The translations under genes were made by a program, and so were the position numbers. Below the pieces are notes generated by a model, which saw only the letters and a program-made list of their open reading frames with translations, had not been told where the DNA came from and did no database searches. DNA of 64,000 nt from Thermus amyloliquefaciens (GTDB lineage Bacteria > Deinococcota > Deinococci > Deinococcales > Thermaceae), in contig NZ_JQMV01000003.1 in assembly GCF_000744885.1 (NCBI RefSeq), positions 1,550,001-1,614,000 on the forward strand, in the 5' to 3' direction. The stretch's first letter is position 1. Every line of letters begins with the position of its first letter. Of the stretch, positions 29,397 to 37,710 are shown piece by piece.

Positions 29397-30320
29397 CTAT
29401 GCCCGGCCCACCGTGCCCATCAATTCAAACTTCTCCCGGATCACCTGCTTCAGGTAGTCCCTGCCCTTCCCGAGGATCTTCCTGGGGTCAAACTCCTTGG
29501 GGTTCCCCAGCACCACCTCGCGGATGCCCAGGGTCATGGCCAGGCGCAGGTCGGTGTCGATGTTGATCTTGGCGATCCCCTTGGGGATGGCCTTACGGAT
29601 GTCCTCGTCGTGGATGCCCGTGGCCTCCTTGAGCTCAGCCCCCGTGGCCAGGAGCTTCTCCTTGAGCCAGGCGGGGACCCCGCTGGCCCCGTGGAGCACC
29701 AGGGGGATGGAAACCCGCTTGCTGATCTCCTCGAGGCGCTTGTGGTCAATGTAGGGCCGCCCCTTCCCCTTGTAGGCCCCGTGGCTGGTGCCGATGGCGA
29801 TGGCCAGGTAGTCAATCCCCGTCTCCGCCACGAAGCGCTCCGCCTCCTCGGGGTCGGTGAGGAAGGCCTCGGCCTCGGACACCTGGATGTTGTCCTCAAT
29901 GCCCTGAAGCCGCCCAAGCTCCGCCTCCACGCTCACCCCCACCGCATGGGCCGCCTCCACCACCTTCTTGGTCTCGGCCACGTTTTCCTCAAAGGGGTGG
30001 TGGCTGGCGTCAATCATCACGCTGGTGAAGCCCGCCCGCAGAGCCTGCATCACCATCTTGAAGTCGGCCCCGTGGTCCAGGTGAAGGACCACGGGCACCT
30101 TGGTGCGGCTGGCCATGTCCTTCACCAGGTTGGCCAGGTTCTCCATCCCGGCGTACTTCCGGGCCCCGTCGGAAATCTGGATGAAGACGGGGGCCCGGAG
30201 CTCGTCGGCCACCTCGAGGATGGCCTGGGTGATCTCCAGGTTGTTGGTGTTGAAACTGGGAACCGCATAGCCTTCCCGCCGCGCCTTGTCCAGAACCTCC
30301 TTACCTATCACCAAGGGCAT
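29397..30320 (-). CDS. fba: Fructose-1,6-bisphosphate aldolase, class II
   Basis: Condenses GAP with DHAP (and probably E4P with DHAP) in the regeneration phase of the Calvin cycle, and serves glycolysis in reverse. 307 residues. Zinc and substrate motifs: FNTNNLE, VVLHLDHGAD, DASHHPFEENV, LAIAIGTSHGAYKG, LVLHGASGVP and KINIDTDLRLA. Its start overlaps rpe by 20 bases. Last gene of the cbb operon. A second, broken aldolase lies near 39000. Confidence 0.95.
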   Translation of the reverse strand: MPLVIGKEVLDKARREGYAVPSFNTNNLEITQAILEVADELRAPVFIQISDGARKYAGMENLANLVKDMASRTKVPVVLHLDHGADFKMVMQALRAGFTSVMIDASHHPFEENVAETKKVVEAAHAVGVSVEAELGRLQGIEDNIQVSEAEAFLTDPEEAERFVAETGIDYLAIAIGTSHGAYKGKGRPYIDHKRLEEISKRVSIPLVLHGASGVPAWLKEKLLATGAELKEATGIHDEDIRKAIPKGIAKINIDTDLRLAMTLGIREVVLGNPKEFDPRKILGKGRDYLKQVIREKFELMGTVGRA

Positions 30321-30969
30321 ACAGCACCTCCTTTAGCTCCCTAAGGTTATCAGCCACGGGCCGCTGGTTGAAAAGGGCGCTCCCCGCCACGGCCACGTCC
30401 GCCCCCGCCCGGTACACCTCGGCCACGGTCTCCCGGTTCACCCCCCCGTCCACCTGGATGAGGCAGGAAGGGTTAAGCCTGTCCCGCATCTCCTTGAGGC
30501 GGCGAAGCCTCCCCGTGGCGCTGGGGATGTACCTCTGCCCCCCAAACCCCGGGTTCACGCTCATGAGGAGGGCCAGGTCCAGCTCGGGCAAAAGGGGTTC
30601 AAAGGCCTCCAGGGGGGTGGCGGGGTTAAGGGCCAGCCCCGCCTTCTTCCCCAGCTCCTTCACCTTCTGCACCGCCCGGTGGGCGTGGGGCGTGGCCTCG
30701 TAGTGGACGGTGATGAGGTCGGCCCCGGCGCGGGCGAAGTCCTCCAGGTAGCGCTCCGGTTGCACGATCATCAGGTGCACGTCCAAGGGCAGGGAGGTTA
30801 CCCGCCGCACCGCCTCCACCAAAAGGGGGCCGAAGGTGAGGTTGGGGACGAAGACCCCGTCCATCACGTCCAGGTGGATCCAGTCCACCCCGGCCGCCTC
30901 CGCCTCCTGGATCTGGTCCTTAAGCCTCGCCAGGTCCGCCGTCAGGATGGAGGGCGCAAACTTGAGCAT
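30301..30969 (-). CDS. rpe: Ribulose-phosphate 3-epimerase
   Basis: Interconverts xylulose-5-P and ribulose-5-P, feeding phosphoribulokinase. About 222 residues of the TIM-barrel family: FAPSILTADLARL, WIHLDVMDGVFVPNLTFGP, LDVHLMI, MSVNPGFGGQRYI and IQVDGGVNRET. The ATG at 30969 (MLKFAPSIL) fits the family better than the ATG two codons earlier. Lies 10 bases after prk. Confidence 0.95.
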   Translation of the reverse strand: MLKFAPSILTADLARLKDQIQEAEAAGVDWIHLDVMDGVFVPNLTFGPLLVEAVRRVTSLPLDVHLMIVQPERYLEDFARAGADLITVHYEATPHAHRAVQKVKELGKKAGLALNPATPLEAFEPLLPELDLALLMSVNPGFGGQRYIPSATGRLRRLKEMRDRLNPSCLIQVDGGVNRETVAEVYRAGADVAVAGSALFNQRPVADNLRELKEVLYALGDR

Positions 30970-30979
30970 TCCCATCCCC

Positions 30980-31945
30980 CTAGGCCACCCGCAGGTGTCC
31001 CCGCTCGATGGCCAGCTCCCGCATCTTAACCAGATAGTAGGCGATGATGAGCTGGGTCAGGGCCAGGGGGTAGCTCTGCCCCGCCTTGTCCCAGAAGGTG
31101 CCCACCAGGCTGGGGTCAAAGTGCTCGGCGTGAGCCCCCAGGTGTTCCCAGATGATCCGCTCAAAGGCCTGGGCCCGTTCGGGGGTCACGTTGCCGGTGA
31201 TGTCCAGGATGTCCGCCTCCTTCCGGGTTTCCAGGCGGATAAGGGCCTCGTCCTCGTAGGCGGAGTGGAGCACCTCGGAAAGGTCCAGACGGGGCAGGGT
31301 GTGCTTGAGGGCGATGCGCACGTTCAGGGTGCTGGGGTTCTCGGGGTCGTAGCCCGCGGGGCGGTAGAAGCGCACGATGATGTCCGCGTGCTCCTTCTGG
31401 GGCCAGATGAAGGCCCGGGAATCGGGCATGCGCCTTTCGATGTCGGCGATGACCTCCTCCGGGGTGTAGCCCCGCTTGGCCACGTCGCGCTTCACCTTCC
31501 ACTCGCGCCTCAGCTCCTCCTCGGGGTCCAAGTAGACGGTGAGGTGGTAACGGCTCCTAAGGGCAGGGGAGAACAGGGTGAGGAGCCCCTCGAGGATCAC
31601 CACCCGGGGAACAAGCCTCCCCTCCTCCTCCACCGCCCGGGGAGCGGGGACGTAGACGGGCGGGTCAAAGGTGCCCGTGGAGTGGTTGTACACGGGCTTC
31701 AGGATGGGCTCCCCCTCGGACAAGAGGCGCACGTGCTGCTCCATGATGTCCATGTAGTTGCACTCGGGGTTCAGGGGGGTGATGCCCAGCTCCTTGCGCT
31801 GCTTGCGGTCGTACTTGTGGTAGTCGTCCACGCAGATGTTGGTGGTCCGCTCCACCCCAAGAAGCCGGGCGATCCCCCCGGAGATGGTGGTCTTCCCCGC
31901 CCCCGAGTCGCCGGCAATGCCTAACATAAAGGGCCTATGGGGCAT
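30980..31945 (-). CDS. prk: Phosphoribulokinase
   Basis: Phosphorylates ribulose-5-P to RuBP, the RuBisCO substrate. 321 residues with P-loop GDSGAGKTT (12-20), [23 protein letters not shown] and VVILEGLL. The sequence pattern ([28 protein letters not shown]) looks like the plant/cyanobacterial/archaeal class rather than the proteobacterial class. The paired regulatory cysteines of plants are not apparent. Overlaps cbbX by 11 bases. Confidence 0.93.
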
Positions 31946-32831
31946 CTTCCTCCTCCCTTCCCTCCTCCTTAAATACCGAGCTGGCGTAGATGTCCTCCGC
32001 GGTAATGGTCATGAGGTCCTCTGGGGTCACGGGGCCTGCCTTCTGGTAAAGCCGGTAGGCCTGCCTAAGCTTGAAGCGGTCCAGGGCGTTGCGCACGCTT
32101 CGGGCGTAAGCGAAGTTGGGAAGCCGCATGCGCCTTTCCAAGTACTCCAGGAAGGCCTTTTCCGCCTCCTCGGTGAAGCGGTAGCCCTGCCTCTCCAGCA
32201 TGAGCTTGCCGATCTGGAAGAGCTCCTCGGCGCTGTAGGGGGGAAACTCTATGTGGTGGGCGATGCGGGAGCGCATCCCCGGGTTTAGGGCGAAGAACTC
32301 CTCCATGCGGTCCTTGTAACCGGCCAGGATCACCACCAGGTCCTCCCGCTGGTTTTCCATGACCTGCAGGAGGATCTCTATGGTCTCCTGGCCGTAGTCC
32401 CGCTCGTTCTCCGCCCGGTAGAGGCTGTAGGCCTCGTCGATGAAGAGGACACCCCCCATGGCCCGCTTCAAGACCTCCTTGGTCTTGGGAGCGGTGTGGC
32501 CGATGTACTGCCCCACCAGGTCATCGCGGCTGGCCACCACCAGGTGGTCGCGGCGGATGTAGCCCAGCTTGTGCAGGATGGTGGCCATGCGCATGGCCAC
32601 GGTGGTCTTCCCCGTGCCCGGGGGGCCCACGAAGGCCATGTGCAGGGTGGGGCGGTCGGCGGTAAGCCCCAGCTCCCGGCGGAGCCGGTCCACGGAGAGG
32701 TAGGCGGCGATCTCCCGGATCCGGCGCTTCACCGGATGAAGGCCCACCAGCTCCCGATCCAAGGTGTCCAGCACCGCCTCGATCTCGGGGTTCTTCACCA
32801 CCGCCAGGTTTTGGCCTTGGGTTTCCTGCAT
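31935..32831 (-). CDS. cbbX: Red-type RuBisCO activase CbbX
   Basis: An AAA+ motor that remodels inhibited red-type RuBisCO by pulling on the large-subunit C-terminus. 298 residues: Walker [10 protein letters not shown] (about 69-77), Walker [13 protein letters not shown], and the pore-loop/sensor regions typical of CbbX ([33 protein letters not shown]). A 10-bp hairpin separates it from cbbS. An AAGGAGG site precedes the ATG. Confidence 0.95.
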
Positions 32832-32855
32832 GGCCCTCCTTAGGGTTTTGGGAAT

Positions 32856-32879
32856 GGGCCCCGGCCGGGGCCGGGGCCC
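32856..32879 (-). promoter_or_regulatory. Hairpin between cbbS and cbbX
   Basis: A perfect 10-bp G+C stem (GGGCCCCGGC with GCCGGGGCCC, 4-base loop) in the 62-base gap of an otherwise tightly packed operon. There is no U-tract, so it is more likely an mRNA-stability element or leaky terminator that raises cbbLS over the downstream genes. Confidence 0.55.
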
Positions 32880-32893
32880 CTAGATCCCGGGGA

Positions 32894-33325
32894 TTACTCC
32901 TGGTAGCGCTCGCCCTCCGGCCTCATGGTGGCGTAGGGTTCCAAGGTGTATTTCAGCCTGCGCCCATCGCTCCAAAGCTGCCGGTGGAGGCGGAAGCCAG
33001 GCTCCTTCTTGGGCCGGTGAGCGATGAAGGAAACCCTCTGCGCCTGCCACATGGGGGAGGAATCGTAGCCGTTGATCTTGATGTAGGAGTTGGGGAAGGC
33101 CTCGCGGCACTTCTGGAACTCGTACATGGCCGCCGCGGCATCCTCCAGGTCAAACATGGGCAGGCCCCACATGTTCCAGTAGACGTTGTAGGGGCTGGGG
33201 TCGTCGGTGTACTCAATGGAAACCGCCCAGCCGTTTCGGATGATGTACTCAATCTGGGCGCGGATCTCCTCGTCCGTGAGGTCGGGCAGGTAGGAGAAGG
33301 TACCTTGGGTAATGCGCATCTTCAC
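32894..33325 (-). CDS. cbbS: RuBisCO small subunit
   Basis: 143 residues, the longer red-type (form IC/ID) small subunit. N-terminal MRITQGTFSYLPDLTDEEI, then WAVSIEYTDDPSPYNVYWNMWGLPMFD and a C-terminal beta extension (HRPKKEPGFRLHRQ and beyond). It assembles with CbbL into L8S8. It follows cbbL by 12 bases. Confidence 0.96.
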   Translation of the reverse strand: MKMRITQGTFSYLPDLTDEEIRAQIEYIIRNGWAVSIEYTDDPSPYNVYWNMWGLPMFDLEDAAAAMYEFQKCREAFPNSYIKINGYDSSPMWQAQRVSFIAHRPKKEPGFRLHRQLWSDGRRLKYTLEPYATMRPEGERYQE

Positions 33326-33337
33326 ACCCTCCTTCCC

Positions 33338-34786
<1,449 letters not shown>

Positions 34787-35767
34787 CTAATAGGCCACGG
34801 GGCTGATGCCCCGAAGCTTTTCAAGCCGGTGCCAGGCTTCCACCTTCCTGAGGGTGCGGGTGGCCCCGCGGATCACCAGGCTCTCGGTCCAGGCCCGGTT
34901 TTCCCCGTAGCGCACCCCCCGGAGGAAGGGCCCGTCGGTGATGCCGGTGGCGGCGAAGTGGGTGTCCTCCGCCGAGCAGAGTTCCTCCAAGGTGTACACC
35001 CGATCCAGGTCATAGCCGGCATGGATCACGTTCCAGCGCTCCTCCTCGCTTTGCGGGTCCAGGCGCATCTGCATCCCGCCCCCTAAGGCCCGCACCGCCA
35101 CGGCGGCGATCACCCCCTCGGGGGTACCCCCCGTGCCCATGAGCACGTCAATGCCCGTGTCGGGCAGCACCGCGGCCAGGGCCCCGCCCACATCCCCATC
35201 GGTCTGCAGGCTGATGCGGGCCCCCGCCAGGCGGATCTCCTCAATGAGCCTCTGGTGACGGGGCTTATCCAGGACGAAAACCGTAAGCTCCCGCACCTCT
35301 TTTTTCAGGGCGCGGGCGATCTCCTTGAGGTTGTCGGCCACCGAGGCCCTTAGGTCAATGGCCTCCTTGGCCTCAGGCCCCACCACCAGCTTGGCCGCAT
35401 AAAAGGCTGGCCCAGGGTTGAAGAGGGTGCCCTCCGGCGCGGCGGCGATCACGCTGATGGCCCCCGGGCGGCCCAGGGCCAAAAGCCTTGTGCCCTCCAC
35501 GGGATCCACCGCCAGGTCCCAAAGGAGCCCTCCCCCCTGGCCCAGCACCTCCCCGTTGTAGAGCATGGGGGCCTGGTCCTTCTCCCCTTCCCCGATCACC
35601 ACCCGGCCGCGGAAGTCCAGGCTATTCAGGAGAAGGCGCATGGCCTCCACCGCCGCCCGGTCCCCCCCTTCCTTATCCCCCCGGCCCACATACCGGGCCG
35701 AGGCCAAGGCGGCGGCCTCGGTGGCCCGCATCAGGTCCAGGCCCAGGTTGCGCGTGGGCATAGCCAT
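34787..35767 (-). CDS. glpX: Class II fructose-1,6-bisphosphatase (GlpX type)
   Basis: Hydrolyses fructose-1,6-bisphosphate and, in many CBB organisms, sedoheptulose-1,7-bisphosphate. 326 residues: GEGEKDQAPMLYNGE, DPVEGTRLLA (metal site), GTGGTPEGVIAAVA and the FAATGITDG segment. First gene of the cbb operon, starting 6 nt after a -10 box, so apparently leaderless. Confidence 0.94.
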   Translation of the reverse strand: MAMPTRNLGLDLMRATEAAALASARYVGRGDKEGGDRAAVEAMRLLLNSLDFRGRVVIGEGEKDQAPMLYNGEVLGQGGGLLWDLAVDPVEGTRLLALGRPGAISVIAAAPEGTLFNPGPAFYAAKLVVGPEAKEAIDLRASVADNLKEIARALKKEVRELTVFVLDKPRHQRLIEEIRLAGARISLQTDGDVGGALAAVLPDTGIDVLMGTGGTPEGVIAAVAVRALGGGMQMRLDPQSEEERWNVIHAGYDLDRVYTLEELCSAEDTHFAATGITDGPFLRGVRYGENRAWTESLVIRGATRTLRKVEAWHRLEKLRGISPVAY

Positions 35768-35773
35768 GCGCTT

Positions 35774-35825
35774 ACCTTAGAAGGGGGGTTTTATTATTGC
35801 AATCATATGTTTCTCGGCCTAACAT
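35774..35825. promoter_or_regulatory. Divergent cbb/cbbR promoter pair sharing one palindromic -35 box
   Basis: The palindrome TTGCAA (35797-35802, inside ATTGCAAT) reads as a -35 box on both strands. Rightward, a 17-nt spacer leads to TAACAT (35820-35825), then 6 nt to the cbbR ATG. Leftward, a 17-nt spacer leads to TAAGGT (35779-35774), then 6 nt to the glpX ATG. CbbR is expected to bind in this 64-bp region. Confidence 0.7.
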
Positions 35826-35831
35826 AAGCTC

Positions 35832-36737
35832 ATGCTCATATCTAAAAACGCTAAACTGCCGAACCCTGCCGCATTACGGGTTTTTGTCACCGTGGTGGAG
35901 GAAGGCGGCGTGGGCCGGGCCGCCTTGGCCCTGGGCATCACCCAGCCCGCGGTGAGCCAGTACCTGAGGGCCCTGGAGGAACAGGTGGGCCACCCCCTTT
36001 TTGAGCGCCAGGGGCGCCACCTGGTTCTCTCCCGGGTGGGGGAAGCCCTCCTGCCCGAGGCCAGGCGGGTGGTGCAGGCCCTGGAGGAGTTCCAGCGGGT
36101 TTCCCAGGCCATGGGCCGGCTGGAGTTGGGGGAGGTGACCCTGGGCGCCGCCACCACCATGGCCACCTACGTGCTTCCCGCGTTCCTTAAGGATTTCCAC
36201 GAGGCCCACCCGGGGGTTCGGGTGCATGTGGAAAGCGGCTCCTCTGAGCGCCTGGCGGAAAGGTTGCGCATGGGGGAGGTGGAGTTCGCCATCTTGGAAG
36301 GGGTGGAGCACTGGGAAGGCTACGAGCGCCACCTCTTCTACGAGGACGAGCTGGTCCTCATCGTGCCCCCCGACCACCCCTGGGCGGGGCGGGAAGCCGT
36401 ACCCCCGGGGTGGCTAAAGGAGGAAACCCTCATCGTGCGCAAGCCGGGCTCCATGACCTGGCGAGCCTTGGAAAGGGCCTTTGAGCAGGTGGGCCTCGAG
36501 CTGAACCCGATTTTTTACACCGACAACAACGAGGTCACCAAGCGCCTGGTGCTGGCAGGGGCCGGGGTGGGGATCGTGAGCCGGGTGGTGGTCCAGCCCA
36601 ACCTGAAGGTGGGGAACCTCCGCGCCCTGCGGCTTTCCGAGCCCGTGGGGGAGATCAGGCGTTACTTCTGGCTGGTCCACCCCAAGAGCGTGGCCAACCC
36701 CGCGGCCCAAGCCCTCATCGCCCTGTTGCGTTCTTAG
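35832..36737 (+). CDS. cbbR: LysR family regulator of the Calvin operon (CbbR-like)
   Basis: 301 residues. N-terminal winged helix-turn-helix (LRVFVTVVEEGGVGRAALALGITQPAVSQYLRALEE, about 15-50) and a periplasmic-binding-like effector domain (about 95-295). It is divergent from the cbb operon as CbbR normally is, and should activate it in response to a metabolite. Its 3' end overlaps the converging psiE-like gene by 23 bases. Confidence 0.9.
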   Translation: MLISKNAKLPNPAALRVFVTVVEEGGVGRAALALGITQPAVSQYLRALEEQVGHPLFERQGRHLVLSRVGEALLPEARRVVQALEEFQRVSQAMGRLELGEVTLGAATTMATYVLPAFLKDFHEAHPGVRVHVESGSSERLAERLRMGEVEFAILEGVEHWEGYERHLFYEDELVLIVPPDHPWAGREAVPPGWLKEETLIVRKPGSMTWRALERAFEQVGLELNPIFYTDNNEVTKRLVLAGAGVGIVSRVVVQPNLKVGNLRALRLSEPVGEIRRYFWLVHPKSVANPAAQALIALLRS

Positions 36738-37159: not shown

Positions 37160-37435
37160 TTAGTCTACGTCGTTGAGATAGGTGAAATCCCCTTGTTCCT
37201 CCAAAAACTTCTGCATCTCGTAGGGAGAACGGATCCCCTCCTCCCCTGGGAAAGGCCCTTCCATCCAGTGGGGCGGGGCCTCTGGGGGCGGGGTCTGAAA
37301 ACCGTAAAGGTAGTAGAGGACCCAGTAGCCATGCTCATCCTTGAGAACCACCGCATCCCCGTAGCCATCCTCCAGCACCTTCACCGCCTGCTTTTTGGCC
37401 TCTTGGTAGGGCATCTCCGAGTAGTCCATACCCAC
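37160..37435 (-). CDS. Small unknown protein, paralog of its neighbour
   Basis: 91 residues, acidic, rich in Tyr and Trp. It aligns along its length with the next gene upstream: QEAKKQAVKVLEDGYG, HGYWVLYYLYGF, a WMEGPFPGEEG segment and a C-terminal YLND. I do not recognise a family. Gene spacing of 2-4 bases implies co-expression with the transketolase operon. Confidence 0.75.
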   Translation of the reverse strand: MGMDYSEMPYQEAKKQAVKVLEDGYGDAVVLKDEHGYWVLYYLYGFQTPPPEAPPHWMEGPFPGEEGIRSPYEMQKFLEEQGDFTYLNDVD

Positions 37436-37437
37436 CT

Positions 37438-37710
37438 CTACTTGGACTCGTTGATGAAGAGGGTGTACCCATTGTCCTCCAGCCAGCGGGCTTGATCGTA
37501 AGGTTCGCGAAAGCCCTCCGGGGAAGGCCTGGGCCCCTCCACCCAGTCCGGGGTCTCCTCGGGATCGGGGGCTTTGCGCCCGTACCAGCTGTAGAAGTAG
37601 TAGAGGGCATAGTACCCCCCCTCCCCCTCGAGGACCAGCCCCTCCCCTACCCCATCCACCAGGACCTTCACGGCCCTGGCCTCCGCCTCCCGGTGGGCTA
37701 GTTGCCGCAT
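37438..37710 (-). CDS. Small unknown protein, paralog of its neighbour
   Basis: 90 residues. Shared with the downstream paralog: REAEARAVKVLVDGVG, GGYYALYYFYSW, WVEGPRPSPEG and a C-terminal FINES. It looks like a compact alpha+beta domain, possibly binding a partner through the aromatic strand. Function unknown. Overlaps the Dabb gene by 13 bases. Confidence 0.75.
   Translation of the reverse strand: MRQLAHREAEARAVKVLVDGVGEGLVLEGEGGYYALYYFYSWYGRKAPDPEETPDWVEGPRPSPEGFREPYDQARWLEDNGYTLFINESK

Follow-up and report, generated by a model that had tools for sequence, protein, structure and literature searches.

Predicted leaderless promoters of cbbR and the cbb operon of Thermus that appear to share one palindromic −35 box

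In the 64,000-nucleotide window of Thermus amyloliquefaciens that we analysed, 64 bases separate the start codons of two divergent genes, glpX on the minus strand and a gene for a LysR-type regulator on the plus strand. The exact middle of this gap is the palindrome TTGCAA (35797-35802), and the locus raises the question of whether these six bases act as the −35 element of two opposed promoters, and what this would mean for the expression of regulator and operon. On direct reading, the same order of elements extends from TTGCAA in each direction, a 17-nt spacer, a TANNNT hexamer, a gap of 6 nt, and an ATG: on the plus strand 35803-35819, TAACAT (35820-35825), and the ATG at 35832; on the minus strand 35796-35780, TAAGGT (35779-35774), and the ATG at 35767. 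The palindrome and the spacings named in the original prediction were exact on rereading. Its "TAA-type" −10 boxes are present on both sides, but the motif is properly TANNNT, as position 3 varies between species. The core elements of the opposed promoters thus overlap in one −35 hexamer, read from both strands and lying 17 nt from each −10, and the predicted starts of cbbR and of the glpX operon are 65 bp apart. The operon has seven genes in the order glpX-rbcL-rbcS-cbbX-prk-rpe-fba. The features are as follows:

29397-33325, minus strand: remainder of the operon (RuBisCO small subunit, CbbX, phosphoribulokinase, ribulose-phosphate epimerase, class II aldolase)
33338-34777, minus strand: RuBisCO large subunit
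34787-35767, minus strand: glpX, class II fructose-bisphosphatase (TIGR00330), first gene of the cbb operon
35774-35779, minus strand: predicted −10 of the glpX operon, TAAGGT, 6 nt 5' of the ATG (TAGGGT in genome G008, TACCCT in G049)
35780-35796, minus strand: glpX promoter spacer, 17 nt (from comparison)
35792-35807: imperfect dyad TAT.ATTGCAAT.ATA, within and around the 17-bp block
35793-35809, plus strand: invariant 17-bp block ATTATTGCAATCATATG, probable operator (perhaps for CbbR) overlapping the shared −35 (from conservation)
35797-35802, no strand assigned: palindromic −35 TTGCAA, apparently common to both promoters (direct reading and conservation)
35803-35819, plus strand: cbbR promoter spacer, 17 nt, the last 10 nt free to vary and the length fixed
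35820-35825, plus strand: predicted −10 of cbbR, TAACAT (TANNAT in relatives), 6 nt 5' of the ATG (reading and comparison)
35832-36737, plus strand: gene for a cbbR-like LysR-type regulator, 301 aa
35838-35876, plus strand: candidate second element, rare AT-ending codons within cbbR codons 3-15 (suggestive only; absent in G049)

An Rfam search of the window returned tRNAs only, and a plasmid collection searched with the glpX/cbbR intergenic region gave no match. Downstream of cbbR, two adjoining small genes (37160-37435 and 37438-37710) encode similar proteins, by eye tandem paralogues of ca. 90 aa with no function assigned.

Measured against the E. coli consensus the hexamers are weak, with 4 of 6 matches for the −35 on both strands and 4 and 3 of 6 for the −10 boxes, and a generic sigma-70 consensus scan of the gap found no promoter. 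The case for promoters therefore rests on comparison. Across Deinococcus-Thermus a TANNNT −10 drives leaderless transcription, in most cases with no −35 present, and transcription is stronger when a −35 lies 17 bp upstream (PMC12340547). Over 800 kb of the strain's own genome, a TANNNT that ends 6 nt short of the start codon precedes 14.4% of the genes versus about 0.7% at unrelated offsets; enriched about 20 times, it is the dominant leaderless signal, and most leaderless promoters of this genome likewise have no −35. Among 272 leaderless candidates drawn from 864 kb of the genome, window included, TTG boxes peak at exactly 17 nt (10, two of them from the cbb locus, versus about 3 for each other spacing), so that the −35 spacing at the cbb locus appears to be the functional one. 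This background was sampled stretch by stretch, genes being called by a finder of our own that places start codons only approximately. In 27 genomes, a 12-base pattern for divergent leaderless pairs gave 88 forward matches versus a single one for the reversed control. No Shine-Dalgarno sequence precedes cbbR; before glpX there is a weak AAGG in Thermus, absent in G049, a genome of the sister genus. By the TANNNT close to the start codon, both sides fit the Deinococcus-Thermus leaderless class, the start sites being predicted. The two leaderless promoters originally proposed are thus supported by the enrichment and by the conservation of the geometry in 11 genomes (see below).

The geometry of a shared −35, with 40 nt between the −10 boxes, was sought throughout the genus, and the cbb pair was its only instance among the matches listed; the other divergent leaderless pairs among these have different lengths and cores. 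Gaps of 63-64 bp occur in 4 of the 27 leaderless pairs of the own genome, the other three having no TTG boxes. As a separate observation, in 12 of 27 divergent pairs with leaderless signals on both sides (864 kb) the distance between start codons is a mere 17-34 bp and the −10 motifs overlap or adjoin (G000:C3 near 394453, 795258, and 267364; e.g. CATGCTATACACTTTAGGCCATG); these pairs resemble leaderless bidirectional promoters. A further divergent leaderless pair of 63-64 bp (G000:C3:702532-702594) carries a conserved core of its own, TGAGAAGAARTTTTCATC, and has counterparts in most Thermus genomes among the matches listed; the core is apparently another operator between two leaderless genes.

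RuBisCO is present in 14 of the 27 Thermus genomes, and all 14 carry the 17-bp block upstream of glpX. The block occurs once per genome, only beside glpX, and only in RuBisCO-bearing Thermus and G049; further copies that might form a regulon were sought across the genome and none was found. The complete arrangement (17 and 6 nt on both sides) is intact in 11 genomes of two genera, ten of Thermus and G049. All 11 have ATTATTGCAATCATATG without a single change, whereas the ten bases leading up to the cbbR −10 are free to differ. This invariant unit of 17 bp, extending beyond TTGCAA, is a point that the original prediction lacked. Substitutions in the −10 boxes spare T1, A2, and T6 on both sides, the variants being TAAGGT, TAGGGT, and TACCCT for glpX and TAACAT, TACCAT, TACTAT, and TAGCAT (TA[ACG][CT]AT) for cbbR. 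Geometry, conservation, the identity of the −10 and −35 elements, and the uniqueness of the block are established, as far as sequence and comparison can do so.

In the four other RuBisCO-bearing Thermus genomes the two promoters have been separated. Insertion elements part cbbR from the block in G003 and G012, where the spacing before insertion can be read as 17/6, the block beside glpX is untouched, and the operon side is intact. The two insertions into the cbbR promoter (L041/L009 in G003, L047/L010 in G012) are independent, with target duplications of 8 and 11 bp. In G001 and G002, about 80 extra bases lie between the block and a duplicated cbbR −10 and start; here only one or two block bases were altered, and in G001 the relocated promoter carries TTGTCA with a 17-nt spacing. 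TTGCAA is kept in 13 of the 15 Thermus/g5 genomes and reads CTGCAA in these two. Evidently the operon side can persist unchanged after cbbR has been deprived of the shared box.

Whether the hexamer truly serves both promoters can be judged from the genomes that depart from the arrangement. No hexamer but TTGCAA gives TTG from both strands, and its 4/6 + 4/6 is the best two-strand score, attained by six hexamers in all. The glpX of ten outgroup genomes, from two further genera, retains TTGNNC-17-TAC..T despite having a leader and a Shine-Dalgarno sequence, from which we conclude that this promoter occurs widely across the family. Their cbbR is leaderless; 21-22 nt lie between its −10 and the corresponding box, where the plus strand reads G..CAA, not TTG. 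Wherever cbbR has the 17-nt spacing, now or before insertion, the palindrome-completing base is there; the 12 genomes without that spacing have C (10) or G (2) in its place, as seen on the glpX strand. An extended −10 (TGA) precedes cbbR in 11 of 12 non-sharing genomes (nine of the ten outgroups, plus the new −10 of G001 and G002) versus none of 11 sharing genomes. Geometry, substitution pattern, and the switch of promoter type in relatives thus agree with the shared −35 as first proposed. Since the association of palindrome and spacing comprises only two independent evolutionary contrasts, the use of one −35 by both the cbbR and glpX promoters is supported rather than proven.

The regulator has the domains HTH_1 (PF00126) and LysR substrate (PF03466), both above cutoffs. 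Its score against the CbbR equivalog NF045990 (136.6 bits, cutoff 450) is below threshold, the model representing, by its name, a narrow group; its second-best structure match, 5y2v, is a solved Rubisco operon regulator. As the LysR-type gene is divergent from the RuBisCO operon, an arrangement kept in all outgroups examined, we regard the protein as CbbR in the broad sense, with putative control of the operon. Thermus and G049, with the same block, have one identical recognition-helix segment; it changes at two positions (PAVSQY to PGVSQH) in the outgroups, whose block is a different one. Because the invariant unit is longer than a −35 and imperfectly dyad-symmetric, the palindrome is probably also an operator, and most likely the 17-bp block is a regulator site as well, probably for CbbR. 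The CbbR consensus is TNA-N7/8-TNA; the block holds TTA-N6-TCA, and the consensus is unmatched within it. A classical LysR-type primary site lies near −65 of the target (PMC4834489). The classical divergent layout has a conserved T-N11-A dyad at that distance. At this locus −65 of glpX coincides with the cbbR ATG, and a T-N11-A (35795-35807) lies within the block near −33, not near −65; the classical arrangement is not evident. Within cbbR, the rare AT-ending codons ATA, TCT, GCT, AAA, GCA, and TTA among codons 3-15 persist in as many as 13 of 13 Thermus species, and by GC3 of codons 2-15 cbbR ranks among the lowest 1.5% of leaderless genes. Synonymous conservation over the 5' end of cbbR as a whole is not raised (0.83 versus 0.80), only the rare AT-ending codons standing out. 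The segment, at about −71 to −109 of glpX, is possibly an upstream site, or could instead serve translation.

The block might then be solely a CbbR operator, with TTGCAA palindromic to suit a dimeric regulator and the cbbR promoter running on its −10 alone. This would agree with an invariance wider than the hexamer, with the phylum's leaderless promoters usually needing no −35 (PMC12340547, and the own genome), with the joint change of recognition helix and block, and with the two genomes in which insertion elements remove the box from a cbbR that is still open. It does not account for the exact 17 nt to both −10 boxes, nor for the 17 nt that the outgroups keep to the glpX −10 though their block is otherwise different. 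It also leaves aside the loss of T1 on the plus strand and the gain of an extended −10 in genomes where cbbR has departed from the 17-nt distance, as well as the TTGTCA at 17 nt in the new G001 promoter. We consider it unlikely, if the most serious of the alternatives.

We rather favour, with a fair degree of confidence, back-to-back leaderless sigma-A promoters that share TTGCAA inside a probable operator, compete through the orientation of the polymerase, and are so regulated that cbbR is lowered on induction. Each promoter would use a TANNNT −10 of its own, with transcription beginning on the A of the respective ATG. The original prediction that RNA polymerase engages the box in one orientation at a time is soundly argued: with the same −35 and predicted starts 65 bp apart, two polymerases could not bind together. 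At low activity, cbbR and the operon would be served alternately. When the operon is induced, as in autotrophic growth, operon-directed polymerase and the regulator on the block would lower cbbR transcription; RuBisCO is much higher in autotrophic than in heterotrophic T. brevis (PMC13019369). We infer that the outcome is mild coupling, strong operon transcription reducing cbbR with the regulator on or off the block. Such behaviour has a parallel in E. coli bidirectional promoters, where basal competition was negligible at all five tested and strong activation of one direction represses the other (PMC12825309).

A symmetric orientation switch, in which the −35 is itself the operator, the regulator sets the direction of the polymerase, and operon induction automatically cuts regulator synthesis, requires neither leaders nor separate sites; we hold it to be a doubtful reading. 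Slightly more doubtful still is the intrinsic exclusivity of expression first proposed, by which polymerase orientation alone makes regulator and operon mutually exclusive and CbbR biases the choice. The shared −35 and the predicted starts, which would prevent joint binding of two polymerases, speak for it, and overlapping divergent promoters can indeed switch, given unequal strengths and a differential regulator (PMC4207663). But the negligible basal competition in E. coli (PMC12825309) and the weakness of both hexamer sets argue against it, and insertion or duplication has separated the promoters in 4 of the 14 genomes, so that coupling is dispensable. "Intrinsically exclusive" is therefore too strong: the comparative case is good for a shared −35 and weaker for an exclusive switch.

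Quite improbable is a glpX that is not leaderless, with the AAGG in TAAGGT as a Shine-Dalgarno sequence and the start further upstream, so that only cbbR would be leaderless. CTAAGGTAAGCGCATG does hold AAGG at a plausible distance, and outgroup glpX leaders carry AGGAGGT. G049, however, has TACCCTTAAGCCATG, which retains TACCCT without AAGG in unchanged geometry and so favours a −10 over a ribosome site; with TAGGGT in G008 and substitutions that spare TANNNT, this reading was rejected. That weak hexamers in an AT-rich gap should have lined up by chance, as single matches of 3-4 of 6 and the empty consensus scan might suggest, is scarcely credible; this reading was rejected in view of base-exact conservation in 11 genomes amid freely varying spacers.

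Thermus autotrophic growth was reported only in 2026 (PMC13019369), and the block would be the first regulatory site that we could trace for carbon fixation in this genus, one spot for which cbbR and operon probably compete and at which they are jointly controlled. A search of open-access papers for a shared −35 found no identical case. The locus offers a clean natural case, with related genomes where sharing has been undone, and through these variants it lends itself to testing directly whether regulator and operon compete for polymerase.

Among known systems, the Deinococcus-Thermus leaderless promoters (PMC12340547) are alike in having TANNNT a few bp before the ORF and in being strengthened by a −35 at 17 bp; the cbb locus differs in joining two of them through one −35, where most have none. 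LysR-type systems (CbbR; ThnR, PMC4834489) share the regulator gene divergent from its target operon and the short intergenic region; their primary site is near −65, whereas the sole invariant block here is centred near −33 to both predicted starts. In pLS20, Pc and Pr with Rco (PMC4207663) are likewise overlapping divergent promoters of operon and regulator, where polymerase competition acts together with the regulator, but there, in the assignment that the authors favour, each −35 coincides with the opposite −10, and DNA looping also plays a part. The bidirectional promoters of Warman, Grainger et al. (PMC12825309) have in common with the cbb locus a pseudo-symmetric element read two ways, binding in one direction blocking the other. 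They share a −10, with starts 10, 18, or 23 bp apart; the cbb locus has separate −10 boxes and predicted starts 65 bp apart, and so falls outside that definition. We regard the cbb pair as real, conserved, and compact overlapping divergent promoters, which appear to share a −35 instead of the known −10.
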